NCBI RefSeq assembly: GCF_025642135.1
Contig: NZ_CP106793.1
Coordinates: forward strand, 1,054,001 to 1,118,000
Source: Streptomyces cynarae
GTDB lineage: Bacteria; Actinomycetota; Actinomycetes; Streptomycetales; Streptomycetaceae
Length of the DNA stretch: 64,000 nucleotides
Direction of reading: 5' to 3'
Part shown: positions 51,145 through 58,742 of the stretch, piece after piece
How the letters are laid out: every line of letters starts with the position of its first letter
How positions within the stretch are numbered: position 1 is the stretch's first letter
Position numbers and translations under genes: made by a program
The notes under the pieces: model-generated
What the model was told of the DNA's origin: nothing
The model's database searches: none
What the model saw: only the letters and a program-made list of their open reading frames with translations

Positions 51145-54100
51145 ATGGGCGTGCGCACATGGATCGACTCCTGGCCGGTCTACCGCCAGCTCAAGGGAAC
51201 CGACCCGCTGGGCCGCGGGGCCGCGGCCAAGAGCGGGACCAGCGCGCGGCTCACGCCCCGGGTCGCCACCGCCGACCGGGTGGTCAAGTCGGTGTGCCCG
51301 TACTGCGCCGTGGGCTGCGGCCAGAACGTCTACGTCGAGGACGAGCGGGTCACGCAGATCGAGGGCGACCCCGACTCCCCCGTCTCCCGCGGCCGTCTGT
51401 GCCCCAAGGGCGCCGCGAGCCTCCAGCTGACCACCGGCGACGCGCGCGAGCACCACGTCCTGTACCGGCGCCCCTACGGCACCGAGTGGGAGCGTCTCGA
51501 CCTCGACACGGCGATGGACATGATCGCCGACCGGGTGATCGCGGCGCGCCGGGCCGGCTGGGAGTGGGAGGTCGACGGGAACCGCACCCGGCGCACGCTC
51601 GGCATCGCGAGCCTCGGCGGGGCGACCCTCGACAACGAAGAGAACTACCTGATCAAGAAGCTTTTCACCGCCCTGGGAGCGATTCAGATCGAGAACCAGG
51701 CGCGTGTTTGACACTCCTCCACCGTTCCCAGTCTGGGAACCTCGTTCGGCCGCGGCGGCGCGACCACCTTCCAGCAGGACCTGCAGAACTCCGACTGCAT
51801 CGTCATCCAGGGCTCGAACATGGCCGAGTGCCATCCGGTCGGGTTCCAGTGGGTGATGGAGGCCAAGGCCCGCGGAGCGAAGGTGATCCACGTCGACCCG
51901 CGGTTCACCCGCACCAGCGCGCTGGCCGACCTCCATGTGCCGCTGCGCGCGGGTTCGGACATCGCCTTCCTGGGCGGGATCGTCAACTACGTCCTGAGCA
52001 ACGAGAAGTACTTCCGCGACTACATCGTGGCGTACACCAACGCGCCGGTGGTGCTGCGGGAGGACTTCCGGGACACCGAGGACCTCGACGGCGTCTTCTC
52101 GGGTCTGGACGCCGACAGCCGCAGCTACGACAGCCGCAGCTACGACAACAGCAGCTGGCAGTACGAGGGCACGGAGATCCAGGCGGCCTCGGGCGAACGT
52201 GACCAGGAGTACGAGGAGCGCACCCGTGGCGGCCGCTCGGTGTCGGAGGCGGCGCGCGGTGAGGCCCACGGTTCGGGTGGCGCCGCGATCCCGGAGGGCG
52301 AGCCCGAGCGCGACGAGACACTGACCCACCCGCGCTGTGTCTTCCAGGTGCTCAAGCGCCACTACGCCCGCTACACCCCGGAGATGGTCGAGCGGATCTG
52401 CGGGGTGCCGCAGGACCTGTTCCGCCAGGTGTGCGAACTCGTGTCGGAGAACTCCGGACGCGAGCGGACCACCGCCTTCGCCTACGCGGTCGGCTGGACG
52501 CAGCACACCGTCGGTGTCCAGTACATCCGCGCGGCCGCCGTGCTGCAGAGCCTGCTCGGCAACATCGGCCGTCCGGGCGGAGGCATCCTCGCCCTGCGCG
52601 GACACGCCTCCATCCAGGGTTCGACCGACATCCCCACCCTGTTTAACCTGCTGCCCGGCTACATCCCGATGCCGCACGCGCACCACAACCAGGACCTCGA
52701 CGCCTTCATCGAGGCGGAGGCGGCGCACAAGGGCTACTGGGGCAACATGCGCTCGTACCTGGTGAGCCTGCTCAAGGCGTACTGGGGCGAGGCCGCGACA
52801 CCGGACAACGACTTCTGCTTCGACTACCTGCCGCGCCTGACGGGCTCCCACTCGACCTACGAGACGGTGATGGCCCAGCTGGAGGGAACCTGCAAGGGCT
52901 ATTTCCTGATGGGTGAGAACCCGGCGGTCGGCTCGGCGAACTCCAAGATGCAGCGCCTCGGCATGGCCAACCTCGACTGGCTCGTCGTACGCGACTTCTC
53001 CCTCATCGAGTCGGCCACCTGGTGGAAGGACGGCCCCGAGATCGAGACGGGTGAGCTGCGCACGGAGGACATCCGCACCGAGGTGTTCTTCCTTCCCGCC
53101 GCGGCGCACACCGAGAAGGACGGCACCTTCACCAACACCCAGCGTCTGCTGCAGTGGCACCACCAGGCCGTCGAACCGCCCGGCGAGGCGCGCAGCGACC
53201 TGTGGTTCACCTACCACCTCGGCCGCATCATCCGGGAGAAGCTCGCCGGGTCGGCCGACGGGATGGACCGCCCGGTGCTGGACCTGACCTGGGACTACCC
53301 CACCAAGGGCGAGAACGCCGAGCCCGAGGCGGAGGCGGTCCTCGCGGAGATCAACGGCTACGACGCCGAGGGCGAACCGCTGGCCTCCTACGAACAACTC
53401 AACGACGACGGCTCCACCGCCTGCGGCTGCTGGATCTACTGCGGGGTCTACGCCGACGGCGTGAACCAGGCGGCCCGCCGCAAGCCGGGCAAGCAGCAGA
53501 ACTGGGTGGCGAACGAGTGGGGCTGGGCCTGGCCGGCCAACCGCCGCATCCTGTACAACCGGGCCTCCGCCGACCCGGACGGCAAGCCGTGGAGCGAGCG
53601 CAAGGCACTGGTGTGGTGGGACGAGGACAAGGCGCTGTGGGTGGGCCACGACATCCCCGACTTCGCGAACAACAAGTCCCCTCATCACCAGCCCCCGCCG
53701 GACGCCACGGGCGCCGAGGCGCTGTCGGGCACCGACGCGTTCATCATGCAGGCCGACGGCAAGGCCTGGCTGTTCGTGCCCTCCGGGCTCACCGACGGGC
53801 CGCTTCCCACGCACTACGAGCCGCAGGACTCGCCCTTCACCAACCTGCTGTACCCCCAGCAGCGCAATCCCGTACGGCAGTTGATGCCGACGCACCCGGA
53901 CAACCGCTACCAGCCCAGCGGCGACGAGCCGGGCACGGAGGTGTTCCCGTACGTCGCCACCACCTACCGGCTCACCGAGCACCACACCGCGGGCGGCATG
54001 TCCCGCTGGCAGCCCTACCTGGCCGAGTTGCAGCCGGAGTTCTTCTGCGAGGTGTCGCCCGAACTCGCTGCCGAGCGCGGCCTGGAGCACACCGGCTGGG

Positions 54101-54436: not shown

Positions 54437-55444
54437 TCACTTCAGTACCACCGAGTGCGAGCCGCGCGGCACGAGTTCCCCGATCACGGGCGCGCCGGGT
54501 ACCTCCCCGGCGACGAGCAGGCCGCCGGAGGTCTGCGCGTCGGCCAGCAGCAGGCGGGTGTCGGCGTCCGTGTCCCCGAAGTCGGTGTGCGGGGTGACCC
54601 ATTCGAGGTTGCGCCGGGTGCCGCCGCTGACGTAACCGTCCCGTACGGCTTCCCGGGCGCCGTCCAGGTAAGGCACGGCGGCGGTGTCGACCACGGCGGT
54701 GACGCCGGAGGCGCGGCCCAGCTTGTGCAGATGGCCGAGGAGGCCGAAGCCGGTGACGTCGGTGGCACAGGTGACTCCGGCCGCGAGCGCGGCACGGGAT
54801 GCGTCCCGGTTGAGGGCGGCCATCGTGGCGACGGCCTGCTCGAACCGTTCGCCGGTGGCCTTGTGCCGGTTGTTGAGCACACCGATGCCCAGGGGCTTGG
54901 TCAGCGACAGGGCCAGTCCCGGCCGGCCGGCGTCGTTGCGCAGCAGCCGCTCGGGGTCGGCGACACCGGTGACGGCCATGCCGTACTTCGGTTCCGGGTC
55001 GTCCACGCTGTGCCCGCCGCCTACGTGGCAGTCCGCCTCGGTGGCGACGTCCAGTCCACCGCGCAGCACCTCGCGGGCCAGGTCGAACGGGAGCCGGTCG
55101 CGCGGCCACGCCAGCAGGTTCACGGCCAGCACAGGCCGGCCGCCCATCGCGTACACGTCGGACAGGGCGTTGGCGGCGGCGATGCGCCCCCAGTCGTAGG
55201 GGTCGTCCACGACCGGGGTGAAGAAGTCGGCGGTGCAGACGATCGCCGTCCCCCGGTGGGTGACCACGGCCGCGTCGTCGCCGGTGGCGAGGCCGACCAG
55301 CAGCGGGGTGTCGCCCCCGGCGAGCGGCGGCACGGTCAGCCCGGCGACCACCTCCTCCAGCTCTCCGGGCGGGATCTTGCAGGCGCAGCCGCCGCCATGG
55401 GCGAACTGCGTGAGGCGGACGGTCTCTTGGCGGGTCGGTGTCAT
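54437..55444 (-). CDS. selD: selenide, water dikinase (selenophosphate synthetase)
   Basis: A 335-residue enzyme that makes selenophosphate from selenide and ATP, the selenium donor for SelA. The start is ATG 55444 (MTPTRQETVRLTQF) with CAGGAG 7 bases upstream; a GTG 18 bases further up is less likely. The N-terminal catalytic loop is HGGGCACKIPPG, in which the active-site residue is Cys, not Sec, followed by Lys. Other family marks are GLATGDDAAVV, FTPVVDDPYDWGRIAAANALSD and GGGHSVDDPEPKYG. It converges on fdhA with 16 bp between the stops and lies downstream of selA-selB on the same strand, with the tRNA-Sec gene on the opposite strand between selB and selD. Confidence 0.95.
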   Translation of the reverse strand: MTPTRQETVRLTQFAHGGGCACKIPPGELEEVVAGLTVPPLAGGDTPLLVGLATGDDAAVVTHRGTAIVCTADFFTPVVDDPYDWGRIAAANALSDVYAMGGRPVLAVNLLAWPRDRLPFDLAREVLRGGLDVATEADCHVGGGHSVDDPEPKYGMAVTGVADPERLLRNDAGRPGLALSLTKPLGIGVLNNRHKATGERFEQAVATMAALNRDASRAALAAGVTCATDVTGFGLLGHLHKLGRASGVTAVVDTAAVPYLDGAREAVRDGYVSGGTRRNLEWVTPHTDFGDTDADTRLLLADAQTSGGLLVAGEVPGAPVIGELVPRGSHSVVLK

Positions 55445-55478
55445 ACCTGTCTCCTGGGGCACTAGCCTGGCGAGCGGT

Positions 55479-55571
55479 GGAGGCGTGTGGGTGCCTGGTG
55501 GCCCTCCCGGTCTTCAAAACCGAGGTGTCCGAGGATCTCGGGCAGGCGGGTTCGATTCCCGTCCGCCTCCG
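55479..55571 (+). tRNA. selC: tRNA-Sec (anticodon UCA)
   Basis: A 93-base tRNA. The acceptor stem GGAGGCG (55479-55485) pairs with CGCCTCC (55564-55570), with discriminator G at 55571; CCA is not encoded. The anticodon loop CTTCAAA (55512-55518) carries TCA at 55514-55516 on a CGGT/ACCG stem. The long variable arm has a 7-bp stem (55527-55533 / 55537-55543) with a GAT loop, and the T arm is GCGGG-TTCGATT-CCCGT with one G-U pair. Long extra arm plus UCA anticodon identify selenocysteine tRNA, which reads UGA. A TAGCCT at 55463-55468 could be its -10 box. Its 3' half is antisense to the end of selB. Confidence 0.95.
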
Positions 55572-57355
55572 CTGCCCGGCTCGGGCCGGCAGCGCCGGCG
55601 CTGGTCGTCCACCCGCTCGGTGTGTCCCTGCGCGTCCAGCAGTTCCAGGAGCGGCACGGCCACCCTGCGCGTGGTGTCCAGGGCCCGGCGGGCCTCGCTG
55701 AGTGTGAACGGCTGGGGCAGCCGGCGCAGGACGTCGGCGGCCCGGGCGTCCGCTCCCGGGAGCAGCACGATGCCGTCGGCCACCGCCAGCAGCGCGCCCG
55801 CCGAGACCGCGGCGGCCACCGCCTTGCGGGTGAGCCCGAGTTCCTTCAGGCGGTCGGCCTCCGGTGCGCGGAACGGCGTCCGCGTCAGCTCGCGCCGTAC
55901 GGCGTCGACGGCGGCCTGGAGGGGCGGTGGCAGTGTCGGCCGGAGGCTGTCGGGACCGTACAACCGGCCTTGCCGGCGCAGCAGCCGGGCCTGGCCCGGT
56001 GTCTCGGCGAGCGCGTCCACCAACGCCCGGTCGGGCAGGCCGAGCAGGCGCCGGGCCGCCTCGGTCGGCAGGCCCGGTTCCAGCGGGTGCTCCTCGGCGT
56101 ACCGCTTCACCTCGGCGGCCAGGCGCTCCCGCAGTGCCGCCCAGTGGGTCTCGTCGACCAGCCATTCCCCGGCGATGGGCGCGGTGGGCGGCGGCACCCC
56201 CATCGCCGACAGCTCCGAGCGACGGACGAGCCGTCGGCGCCGCAGCTCCGCGGCACCGTCCGGGCGGCCGGTCATGGCCGCCAGTTCGGCCGCCCGTGTA
56301 CGTCCCGCACCCCGCCGGGCCAGTCGCGGCGGGCGTACGTCGAGCACGGTCACCCCGCGCGGCATGCGCTGCCCTCCCGGCTCCCGCAGCACGGCCCGGT
56401 CCCCGACACGCAGGGGCAGGGCCCGGTTCAGGGTCAGCCGCGCGGTGTCCTCCCCCAGTGGGCGGACCGTCGCAGGGACGGCGGCCGTACCGATGTGGAC
56501 GGTGACCGTGCGAGGCAGGTCGGCGACCGGTTCGCCGGTGACACGCACGTCCACGAGGTCGGTGAGCAGCCAGCGGTCCGGTGTCAGCAGCACCTGCCCC
56601 CGCCGCAGGGCACCGTCCACGGAGCCGTGCACGTTGACCGCCACCCGCGCCACGCCGCTGACGGCGGACCGGTCCTCGTGCAGGCACTGCAGCCCGCGCA
56701 CCTTCAGCAGGGTGGAGCCGTCGCCCGTCACCAGCCGGTCGCCGACGCGCAGGGTGCCCGCGCCGAGCGTGCCGGTCACCACGGTGCCGTGGCCGCGTAC
56801 GGTGAAGGCGCGGTCCAGCCACAGGCGCACGTCCGCGTCCGCGGGCGGCACCGGCAGCGACCGCGCCGACCGGGCCAGTTCCGCACGCAGTTCGTCCAGT
56901 CCGGCGCCGGTCACCGCGCTGACCGCCACCGACGGCACCGCGCCGAGCGAGGTGGCGGCCAGGCGCTCCACGGCGTCGGCGCGCACGGGCTCGGGGTCCG
57001 CCAGGTCGCTGCGGGTCACCGCGAGCACGGCGTGCCGTACGCCGAGGGCGTCGAGGATCGCCAGGTGTTCCTGGGACTGGGGTTGCCAGCCCTGGTCGGC
57101 CGCCACGACGAACAGCACGGCGGGCACGGGTCCGACTCCGGCCAGCATGGTGGCGACGAACCGTTCGTGTCCCGGCACGTCGACGAAGGCCAGATGCTCC
57201 CCGTCCGTCCCCAGCCGGGTCCACACGAAACCGAGGTCGAGGGTGAGCCCCCTGCGCCGCTCCTCCTCGAAGCGGTCGGGTTCCATCCCGGTCAGCGCCC
57301 GCACCAGGGCGGACTTGCCGTGGTCGACGTGCCCGGCGGTGGCCAGCACCCGCAT
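55514..57355 (-). CDS. selB: selenocysteine-specific elongation factor
   Basis: A 613-residue GTPase that brings Sec-tRNA to the UGA at the SECIS hairpin. The start is ATG 57355, 5 bp after selA. G-motifs are TAGHVDHGKSALVRAL, VDVPGHERFVATM and VTRSDLADP. Domains II and III follow (about 175-340: VFTVRGHGTVVTGTLGAGTL). The C-terminal winged helices (about 400-600), which bind the SECIS, include FTLSEARRALDTTRRVAVPLLE. Length equals the E. coli protein. The last 18 or so codons run antisense through the tRNA-Sec gene, and the TGA stop (55514-55516) is the complement of the tRNA anticodon. That tail (ESNPPARDPRTPRF) is probably not functional sequence but is read because no earlier stop exists. 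Confidence 0.93.
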   Translation of the reverse strand: MRVLATAGHVDHGKSALVRALTGMEPDRFEEERRRGLTLDLGFVWTRLGTDGEHLAFVDVPGHERFVATMLAGVGPVPAVLFVVAADQGWQPQSQEHLAILDALGVRHAVLAVTRSDLADPEPVRADAVERLAATSLGAVPSVAVSAVTGAGLDELRAELARSARSLPVPPADADVRLWLDRAFTVRGHGTVVTGTLGAGTLRVGDRLVTGDGSTLLKVRGLQCLHEDRSAVSGVARVAVNVHGSVDGALRRGQVLLTPDRWLLTDLVDVRVTGEPVADLPRTVTVHIGTAAVPATVRPLGEDTARLTLNRALPLRVGDRAVLREPGGQRMPRGVTVLDVRPPRLARRGAGRTRAAELAAMTGRPDGAAELRRRRLVRRSELSAMGVPPPTAPIAGEWLVDETHWAALRERLAAEVKRYAEEHPLEPGLPTEAARRLLGLPDRALVDALAETPGQARLLRRQGRLYGPDSLRPTLPPPLQAAVDAVRRELTRTPFRAPEADRLKELGLTRKAVAAAVSAGALLAVADGIVLLPGADARAADVLRRLPQPFTLSEARRALDTTRRVAVPLLELLDAQGHTERVDDQRRRCRPEPGSGGGRESNPPARDPRTPRF

Positions 57356-57360
57356 GGCGC

Positions 57361-58742
57361 CTACCTCCCCGCCGCCGACCGCACGGCCCCGGCCAGCCGC
57401 TCGTCGTCCTTCGGCGGCACCGTCCGCAGGTCGAGCAGACAGCGCCCCGCCTCCAGACGCCCGACGACGGGAACGGCGCCGGTGCGCAGCGAGGCGGCGC
57501 AGGACTCGGGCAGTGACAGGGCGGCGCTGGGCAGCGTCACCCCGCGCGCGCCGCCGCCTCCCACGGTCGCCGCGCTGTCGACGGCGTGTACGTCGATGCC
57601 GTCGGCGCTCAGCGCCTTGGCGAGCTCCTCGGCGCGGGCCATCAGCTGTTCGGGGTCGGCGGCCAGGGCGGCGGCGGTCGGGGTCCGCGGTCCGGTGAGC
57701 GTGGCTTCCAGGGCGGCCAGGGTCAGCTTGTCCACGCGCAGGGCGCGGGCCAGGGGGTGCCGGGAGACGGTGCGGACCAACTCCCCGTCGCCGAGGAGCA
57801 GGCCGCACTGCGGGCCGCCGAGCAGTTTGTCGCCGCTCGCGGTGACAAGTGAGGCGCCTGACCGCAACTGGGTCTCGGCGTCGGGTTCCTCGGGCAGCAG
57901 CGGGTGGGGGGCGAGCAGCCCGGAGCCGATGTCGGAGACGACCGGGACGCCCAGCGGCGCCAGTTCGCCGGCATCGGCGGCGCGGGTGAACCCGGTGACG
58001 CGGAAGTTGGAGGGGTGGACCTTCAGTACGAATCCCGTCTCCGGCCCGATCGCGGCGGCGTAGTCCGCGGCGGTCGTGCGGTTGGTGGTGCCCACCTCTC
58101 GGAGCCGGGCCCCGGTGGAGACCAGGAGGTCCGGCAGTCGGAAACCGTCGCCGATCTCCACCATCTCCCCCCGGCTGATCACGATCTCCTTTCCGGCGGC
58201 GAGCGCGGTCGCGACCAGGACCAGCGCGGCGGCTCCGTTGTTGACGACGTGCGCCGCGCCGGCGGAGGGCACCCGGTCGCACAGCGCCTTCAGAGCCGTG
58301 CGCCCGCGGCGGGCCCGGACGCCGGTGTGCAGATCCAATTCGACGTCCGTGGGCCCGGCGGCCTCCAGCACCGCCTGCCGGGCCGCGTCCGACAGGGACG
58401 CCCGGCCGAGGTTGGTGTGCAGCACCACTCCGGTGGCGTTGATCACCGGCCGCAGCCCGCTCGCCGTGCCCGGGAGCAGGGCGAGGGCCGCGTCCCGCAC
58501 CCGCTCCGGCGCGATGCTGCCGTCGCGTGCCTGCTCCTGCGCCTGCCGCACGGCCGCCTTCACCACGCGGGGCCCCAGCCGCCCACGGCCTCCGCAAGGT
58601 GCGGATCGCTCAGCAGGGTGTCGGTGCGGGGAATGCGCCGTCGCGTGTCGACGGCGCCGCTTCGCCGGGGCGCGTGTCCGACGCCGGACGCGGCCGCCCC
58701 GGTCCCGTCACCGACTCCCTCCGGTGTGACCCCCTGCTCCAT
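57361..58742 (-). CDS. selA: L-seryl-tRNA(Sec) selenium transferase, with apparent frameshift near the 5' end
   Basis: A PLP enzyme that converts Ser-tRNA(Sec) to Sec-tRNA(Sec). The main frame (GTG 58566 to 57361, 401 residues) has NATGVVLHTNLGRASLS, VNNGAAALVLVATAL, HPSNFRVTGF and the PLP lysine in SGDKLLGGPQCGLLLG. SelA is normally about 460 residues; the missing N-terminus is present in another frame, from ATG 58742 (MEQGVTPEGVGDG) through RRRIPRTDTLLSDPHLAEAV to GPAW and a TGA at 58560. Comparison with SelA suggests GPA-VVKAAVRQAQ, so a single base is missing around 58563-58568. Either translation starts at GTG 58566 and gives a shortened enzyme, or the assembly lacks one base. selA is followed by selB after 5 bp. 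Confidence 0.85.

Follow-up and report, generated by a model that had tools for sequence, protein, structure and literature searches.

Overlaps between selB and selC, the gene for tRNA-Sec, have been described before. In the passages of Mukai 2021 (PMC8124441) on this subject, a reversed tRNA-Sec gene overlapping selB is reported for Shewanella and a few Ferrimonas, for which antisense RNAs are proposed and not demonstrated; in the same passages selC is nested on the sense strand within selB in Alphaproteobacteria and overlaps it partially in Dyella/Luteibacter and in a lineage of Nitrospirae. A term search of that text gave no occurrence of Streptomyces or Actinobacteria, and no other account of a selB/selC overlap was found among the matches listed. 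For Streptomyces incarnatus a selABCD cluster near a Sec-dependent formate dehydrogenase has been reported (PMC4498112), the passages on this cluster making no mention of an overlap. The reversed selB/selC overlap is already published; the termination of selB at the anticodon and the Streptomyces cases presented here are new.

The window, i.e. the whole stretch of 64,000 nt of Streptomyces cynarae DNA that was analysed, contains around selC the genes for the formate dehydrogenase alpha subunit (+), selD (−), selC (+), selB (−) and selA (−). The features relevant for the following are:

51709..51711, plus strand: in-frame TGA and likely Sec codon in the gene for the formate dehydrogenase alpha subunit, with a SECIS-like hairpin behind it
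54437..55444, minus strand: selD, in frame with the selB stop, no intervening stop
55463..55468, plus strand: TAGCCT, a −10-like hexamer before selC, in the selD leader
55479..55572, plus strand: selC, tRNA-Sec gene (ARAGORN; Rfam end 55570)
55514..55516, plus strand: anticodon UCA of tRNA-Sec, the complement of which is the TGA that terminates selB on the minus strand (ARAGORN, frame reading)
55514..57355, minus strand: selB, 613 aa, coordinates including the stop (Pfam GTP_EFTU 2-161, Beta-barrel_SelB 283-344, SelB-wing_3 543-587)
55517..55576, minus strand: SelB residues 594-613, a tail predicted to be disordered (low pLDDT) and almost wholly antisense to the 3′ half of selC
57361..58566, minus strand: selA, 5 nt upstream of selB

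The formate dehydrogenase frame at 51820-54420 matches Pfam Molybdopterin and Molydop_binding. A 7-bp hairpin follows its TGA (window 51709-51740), the loop of which opens with a G at the 20th nucleotide past the TGA, as in a bacterial SECIS element.

ARAGORN places selC at 55479-55572 (+) with the anticodon tca at tRNA position 36, corresponding to 55514-55516 of the window, and Rfam RF01852 matches 55479-55570 (+) with 75.4 bits. This score, which is above the gathering threshold, and the UCA anticodon characterize the gene as that of a bacterial tRNA-Sec. On the minus strand, the selB frame starts with MRVLATAGHVDHGKS, its start codon lying at 57355, and stays open until the TGA formed by the reverse complement of 55514-55516; the encoded protein ends with RRRCRPEPGSGGGRESNPPARDPRTPRF directly before this stop. 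The earlier note had claimed that selC and selB overlap tail to tail and that the anticodon, read on the other strand, is the UGA ending selB. The coordinates obtained with ARAGORN, Rfam and frame reading agree with the first statement and the frame reading with the second, and no earlier in-frame stop that would end selB ahead of selC was found between 57355 and the TGA. The tail-to-tail overlap of selC (+) and selB (−), with the selB stop opposite the anticodon, is therefore real.

The selB product combines an EF-Tu-like GTPase with a C-terminal winged helix, as characteristic of bacterial SelB. The SelB-wing_3 domain occupies residues 543-587 of 613, and residue 579 of the solved Aquifex SelB chain 4zu9 (582 residues) aligns to residue 587. 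In an AlphaFold2 model based on 25 sequences the mean pLDDT is 85.7, with values below 50 at residues 594-606 and 609-613 and also at 27-41. The final ca. 20 residues of SelB are an extension.

The coincidence of stop and anticodon has to be separated from the overlap as such. The TCA of the anticodon is the sole antisense stop of this selC, the other two of the three antisense frames being free of stops, and among the 147 distinct selC sequences of the survey 105 likewise have no antisense stop other than the anticodon. A selB that has run into selC encounters this single stop in only one of three possible frames, so that, given an antisense overlap, its ending at the anticodon has by itself a chance of one in three. 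Beyond chance is the maintenance of the frame among relatives, as 71 of 72 distinct overlapping loci, all mutually related, end at the anticodon.

This count derives from several searches. Among 392 genomes of the genus, 68 contained a selC match (E ≤ 1e-12), weaker matches of about 51 bits and less being taken as other tRNAs and left out, as were five weak RF01852 matches in the S. cynarae genome itself (L002-L006). The 68 loci comprise 29 with the anticodon stop, 11 tail-to-tail loci with a stop before selC, 11 with selB downstream on the selC strand and 17 without selB in the stretch examined. The arrangement, for which conservation in other Streptomyces was to be checked, is accordingly shared by many of them and not by all. 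In the class-level survey selC was found in 100 of 394 genomes. The 93 loci outside the family of S. cynarae include 57 with selB on the selC strand and 33 without selB in the stretch; the rest are a minus-strand selB running off the end, a locus without an ARAGORN selC and a tail-to-tail selB stopping 2,225 nt before selC. Not one selB ended at the anticodon in these 93 loci. A pattern search returned 67 related loci (46 with the anticodon stop, 6 with a stop before selC, 1 other, 4 with both genes on the same strand, 10 without selC), a set biased by the presence of the C-terminal HTERVDDQ among its six patterns. The pooled sets contained 102 tail-to-tail loci or 82 distinct ones, divided into 62 with the anticodon stop, 19 with a stop before selC and 1 other. 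The order-level survey (selC in 53 of 293 genomes) yielded 30 further loci, 7 of them repeats, and added 12 distinct tail-to-tail loci, 9 ending at the anticodon and 3 before selC; of the remaining new loci, 6 had selB on the other strand and 5 lacked it. In total, 94 sequence-distinct tail-to-tail loci are available: selB stops at the anticodon in 71, before selC in 22 and elsewhere in selC in 1, and in none of the 94 does it read right through selC. Loci lacking selB or selC in the examined stretch are uninformative on the overlap, and L027 ends at a contig edge.

Two loci met in the surveys concern the gene order. A Georgenia SelB (L149), which gave a tblastn match up to query residue 612, was rejected as an overlap, its selB being ended by a plain stop with selC upstream on the same strand. 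In Saccharopolyspora sp. HNM0983 (L141) both genes lie on the same strand with selC 45 nt past the selB stop, which corresponds to the alphaproteobacterial order without the overlap.

The preservation of the frame was assessed from changes in spacer length, counted by Fitch parsimony on a FastTree phylogeny built from SelB cores, in which several nodes are weak; the loci are related by descent. The length from SelB to the anticodon takes eleven values in the 62 distinct anticodon-stop loci, and all 14 changes among anticodon-stop tips are multiples of three, as opposed to 5 of 30 changes in the length between selC and the selD start (55 anticodon-stop tips). Since anticodon-stop loci are in frame by definition, the test rests on the near absence of out-of-frame overlaps. 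The single overlapping lineage out of frame is that of S. echinoruber (L133), in which selB stops at a TAG opposite an altered acceptor/T-stem region of selC. With this lineage included, 14 of 15 spacing changes are multiples of three versus 5 of 30 on the selD flank (Fisher p = 9e-7); a manual tally that adds the main-clade lineages stopping before selC gives 20 of 23. The two other antisense frames contain no stop within selC in any of the 62 loci (124 cases). For 121 of these cases the next stop follows after a median of 79 codons (range 36-484), the other 3 running past the end of the sequence. The stop frequency in this GC-rich DNA is ca. 1 codon in 76.

Based on these data we consider the overlap, with its stop at the anticodon, to be a passive by-product, a reading to which we assign a probability of roughly 0.78. 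The loss of its own stop would have let a selB gene arranged tail to tail with selC continue into the tRNA gene, where translation would stop at the UGA opposite the UCA anticodon. Selection on the tRNA would guard this stop from loss. With stops this rare and none but the anticodon on the antisense strand of this selC, a selB that lacks its own stop finds a clean end in just one frame. Frame shifts would presumably be purged for the long extensions they add (36-484 codons where measured) and not for a function of the tail. In our view the overlap supplies a convenient stop that is not easily lost, rather than a demonstrated means of control.

The earlier note had further suggested an antisense transcript across selC, and a regulatory role of the overlap would consist in the selA-selB-selD mRNA acting as a cis-antisense RNA to selC, which would tie the output of SelB and SelD to the level of tRNA-Sec. 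Judged by gene order, a coupling of SelB to the amount of tRNA-Sec by antisense transcription appears plausible. selA is followed by selB after 5 nt, and the selD start lies 69 nt beyond the selB stop, on the far side of selC, so that a selA-selB-selD operon transcript, if present, would have to cross selC in antisense orientation. In line with such coupling are also the mutual antisense RNAs proposed in Mukai's passages on the reversed Shewanella overlap (PMC8124441) and the conserved promoter-like box of selC. Of the 62 distinct anticodon-stop loci, 54 carry this TAGCCT hexamer and 60 a near form, TA[GAC]C[CG]T, no more than 25 nt ahead of selC, even though selC and selD lie anywhere between 34 and 406 nt apart (56 loci measured). 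A scan of 55300-55700 for sigma-70 consensus promoters and terminators gave no match and did not pick up the TAGCCT box. selC very likely has a promoter of its own, as suggested by this box. However, antisense passage requires the gene order alone and neither the overlap nor the anticodon stop, the overlap is absent in 22 of 94 distinct tail-to-tail loci, and the cloverleaf-like fold of the antisense strand is no better than that of shuffled sequences (z −1.06). Regulatory coupling as the reason for the arrangement is thus rated as unlikely. We regard as quite improbable a variant of this idea, in which the selA-selB-selD mRNA mirrors its own tRNA, SelB ending in the mirrored anticodon loop and mRNA and tRNA-Sec exerting mutual antisense control; if true, the mirror reading would tie the supply of the UGA-reading factor to that of the UGA-reading tRNA.

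A functional role of the tRNA-encoded tail as a working part of SelB, e.g. in RNA binding, kept by selection on the protein, would agree with its near identity across 71 distinct loci. The tRNA, however, accounts for this sameness. Across 26 equally long sister pairs, the differences at the three codon positions are 77/82/296 in the SelB core, 30/37/40 in the spacer, which is without codon-position bias, and 13/11/4 in the 3′ half of selC, where 4 synonymous stand against 23 nonsynonymous changed codons. These figures bear out the claim of the earlier note that the tRNA fixes the last residues of SelB. The GC content of 54 short spacers by codon position (0.90/0.76/0.86) forms no clear coding-like pattern. 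The tail is, moreover, predicted to be disordered and is absent or replaced in some relatives: SelB stops before selC in the 22 loci mentioned, in L129 (ending RRRCR) and L131 (ending RRRCRG) right at the conserved SelB end, and inserted DNA takes the place of the tail in L097 (S. spiralis), L138 (S. musisoli) and L140 (S. carpinensis), where SelB runs on into other sequence with a different tail. A need for the overlap or an importance of the tail finds no support in these loci. The tail shows no sign of protein-level selection; tRNA and frame appear to be what is selected, and we consider a working tail very improbable.

Recoding of the selB UGA, yielding a SelB-SelD fusion when Sec-tRNA is abundant, finds a basis in the frame of selD: of the 61 anticodon-stop loci that have selD, 34 share the frame, above one third (nominal p 3e-4, uncorrected for kinship), and 33 of these, including the window, have no intervening stop. 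Such recoding is nevertheless hardly credible, as selD is out of frame in 27 of 61, an intervening stop separates the genes in the 1 further in-frame locus, 25 of the 30 length changes between selC and selD alter the frame, and the hairpin past the selB UGA has an ACCA loop without the G of the formate dehydrogenase hairpin in the window. As a conserved feature, SelB-UGA-SelD recoding was rejected by the frame counts and the hairpin fold.

Parsimony favours, without requiring, that the anticodon-stop state arose at least twice in this bacterial family and was lost several times. The anticodon-stop locus L264 is placed inside a clade of loci stopping before selC (support 0.998), as sister to L171 (0.996) and apart from the main clade and from L051/L053; by parsimony this would imply two origins, both in one frame, retention with several losses being a possible alternative. 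A deep node in the extended SelB tree has a support of 0.049. Cores of less than 150 residues (L155, L200) were left out of the first SelB tree and those of less than 300 residues out of the later one. Main-clade exits from the overlap proceeded by early stops in L129 and L131 and by longer spacers in L016, L026, L032 and L128.

Genomic islands are integrated at selC in bacteria such as E. coli. Copies of the selC 3′ end of 16-25 nt are found at the selB end in L097 (4785-4809), L138 (5163-5187), L140 (4788-4803) and L031 (1205-1227), in the last of which SelB stops ahead of the copy. selC in Streptomyces looks like such an integration site as well, and the event would alter or remove the SelB tail. 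The duplicated 3′ ends at selB in these four loci and an integrase near selC in genome G850 resemble the selC islands of E. coli; unlike there, the putative integration event also changes the C-terminal tail of SelB in these Streptomyces. The integrase is a Phage_integrase (PF00589) frame of 420 aa (G850:C4:733106-734462, L254) just 3′ of selC at 717 nt, with no selB beside that selC; among the matches listed for the other eight genomes searched, there was none to Phage_integrase within about 1 kb of selC. A putative recombinase-like frame is present at 5689-6660 of L097.

In these bacteria the conserved stop codon of a protein-coding gene is provided by the complement of a tRNA anticodon. Any stop-reading tRNA has a stop on its back, and tRNA-Pyl and suppressor tRNAs should follow the same logic. 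Altering the selC anticodon in Streptomyces of this type would extend SelB too. The corresponding claim of the earlier note is substantiated for the window, in which the frame continues through selD without a stop and loss of the selB TGA would fuse SelB to SelD, with 358 codons to the next stop. The SelB gene models of these genomes include a tail that belongs to no domain.

Compared with the systems treated in the passages of Mukai 2021 (PMC8124441), the arrangement shares with Alphaproteobacteria, Dyella/Luteibacter and the Nitrospirae lineage a tRNA-Sec-encoded extension of selB that is conserved but not essential, and with Dyella/Luteibacter also a stop at a fixed place inside the tRNA. 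In all three groups, however, both genes lie on the same strand and tRNA processing would cut the mRNA, whereas they are on opposite strands here. The closest counterpart is the reversed overlap of Shewanella/Ferrimonas, in which selB and selC likewise converge tail to tail on opposite strands and SelB acquires a C-terminal extension from the complement of tRNA-Sec, the tail being fixed by the tRNA, as deduced here from the nucleotide sequence. Their relative Photobacterium damselae has a stop between selB and selC, as in the present loci stopping before selC. According to the same passages, the extension in Shewanella/Ferrimonas spans the tRNA and stops around the selC promoter, in contrast to the anticodon stop of the window and of 71 of 94 distinct loci. 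The present case belongs to a phylum other than that of Shewanella/Ferrimonas and adds the frame test to what has been described for them.
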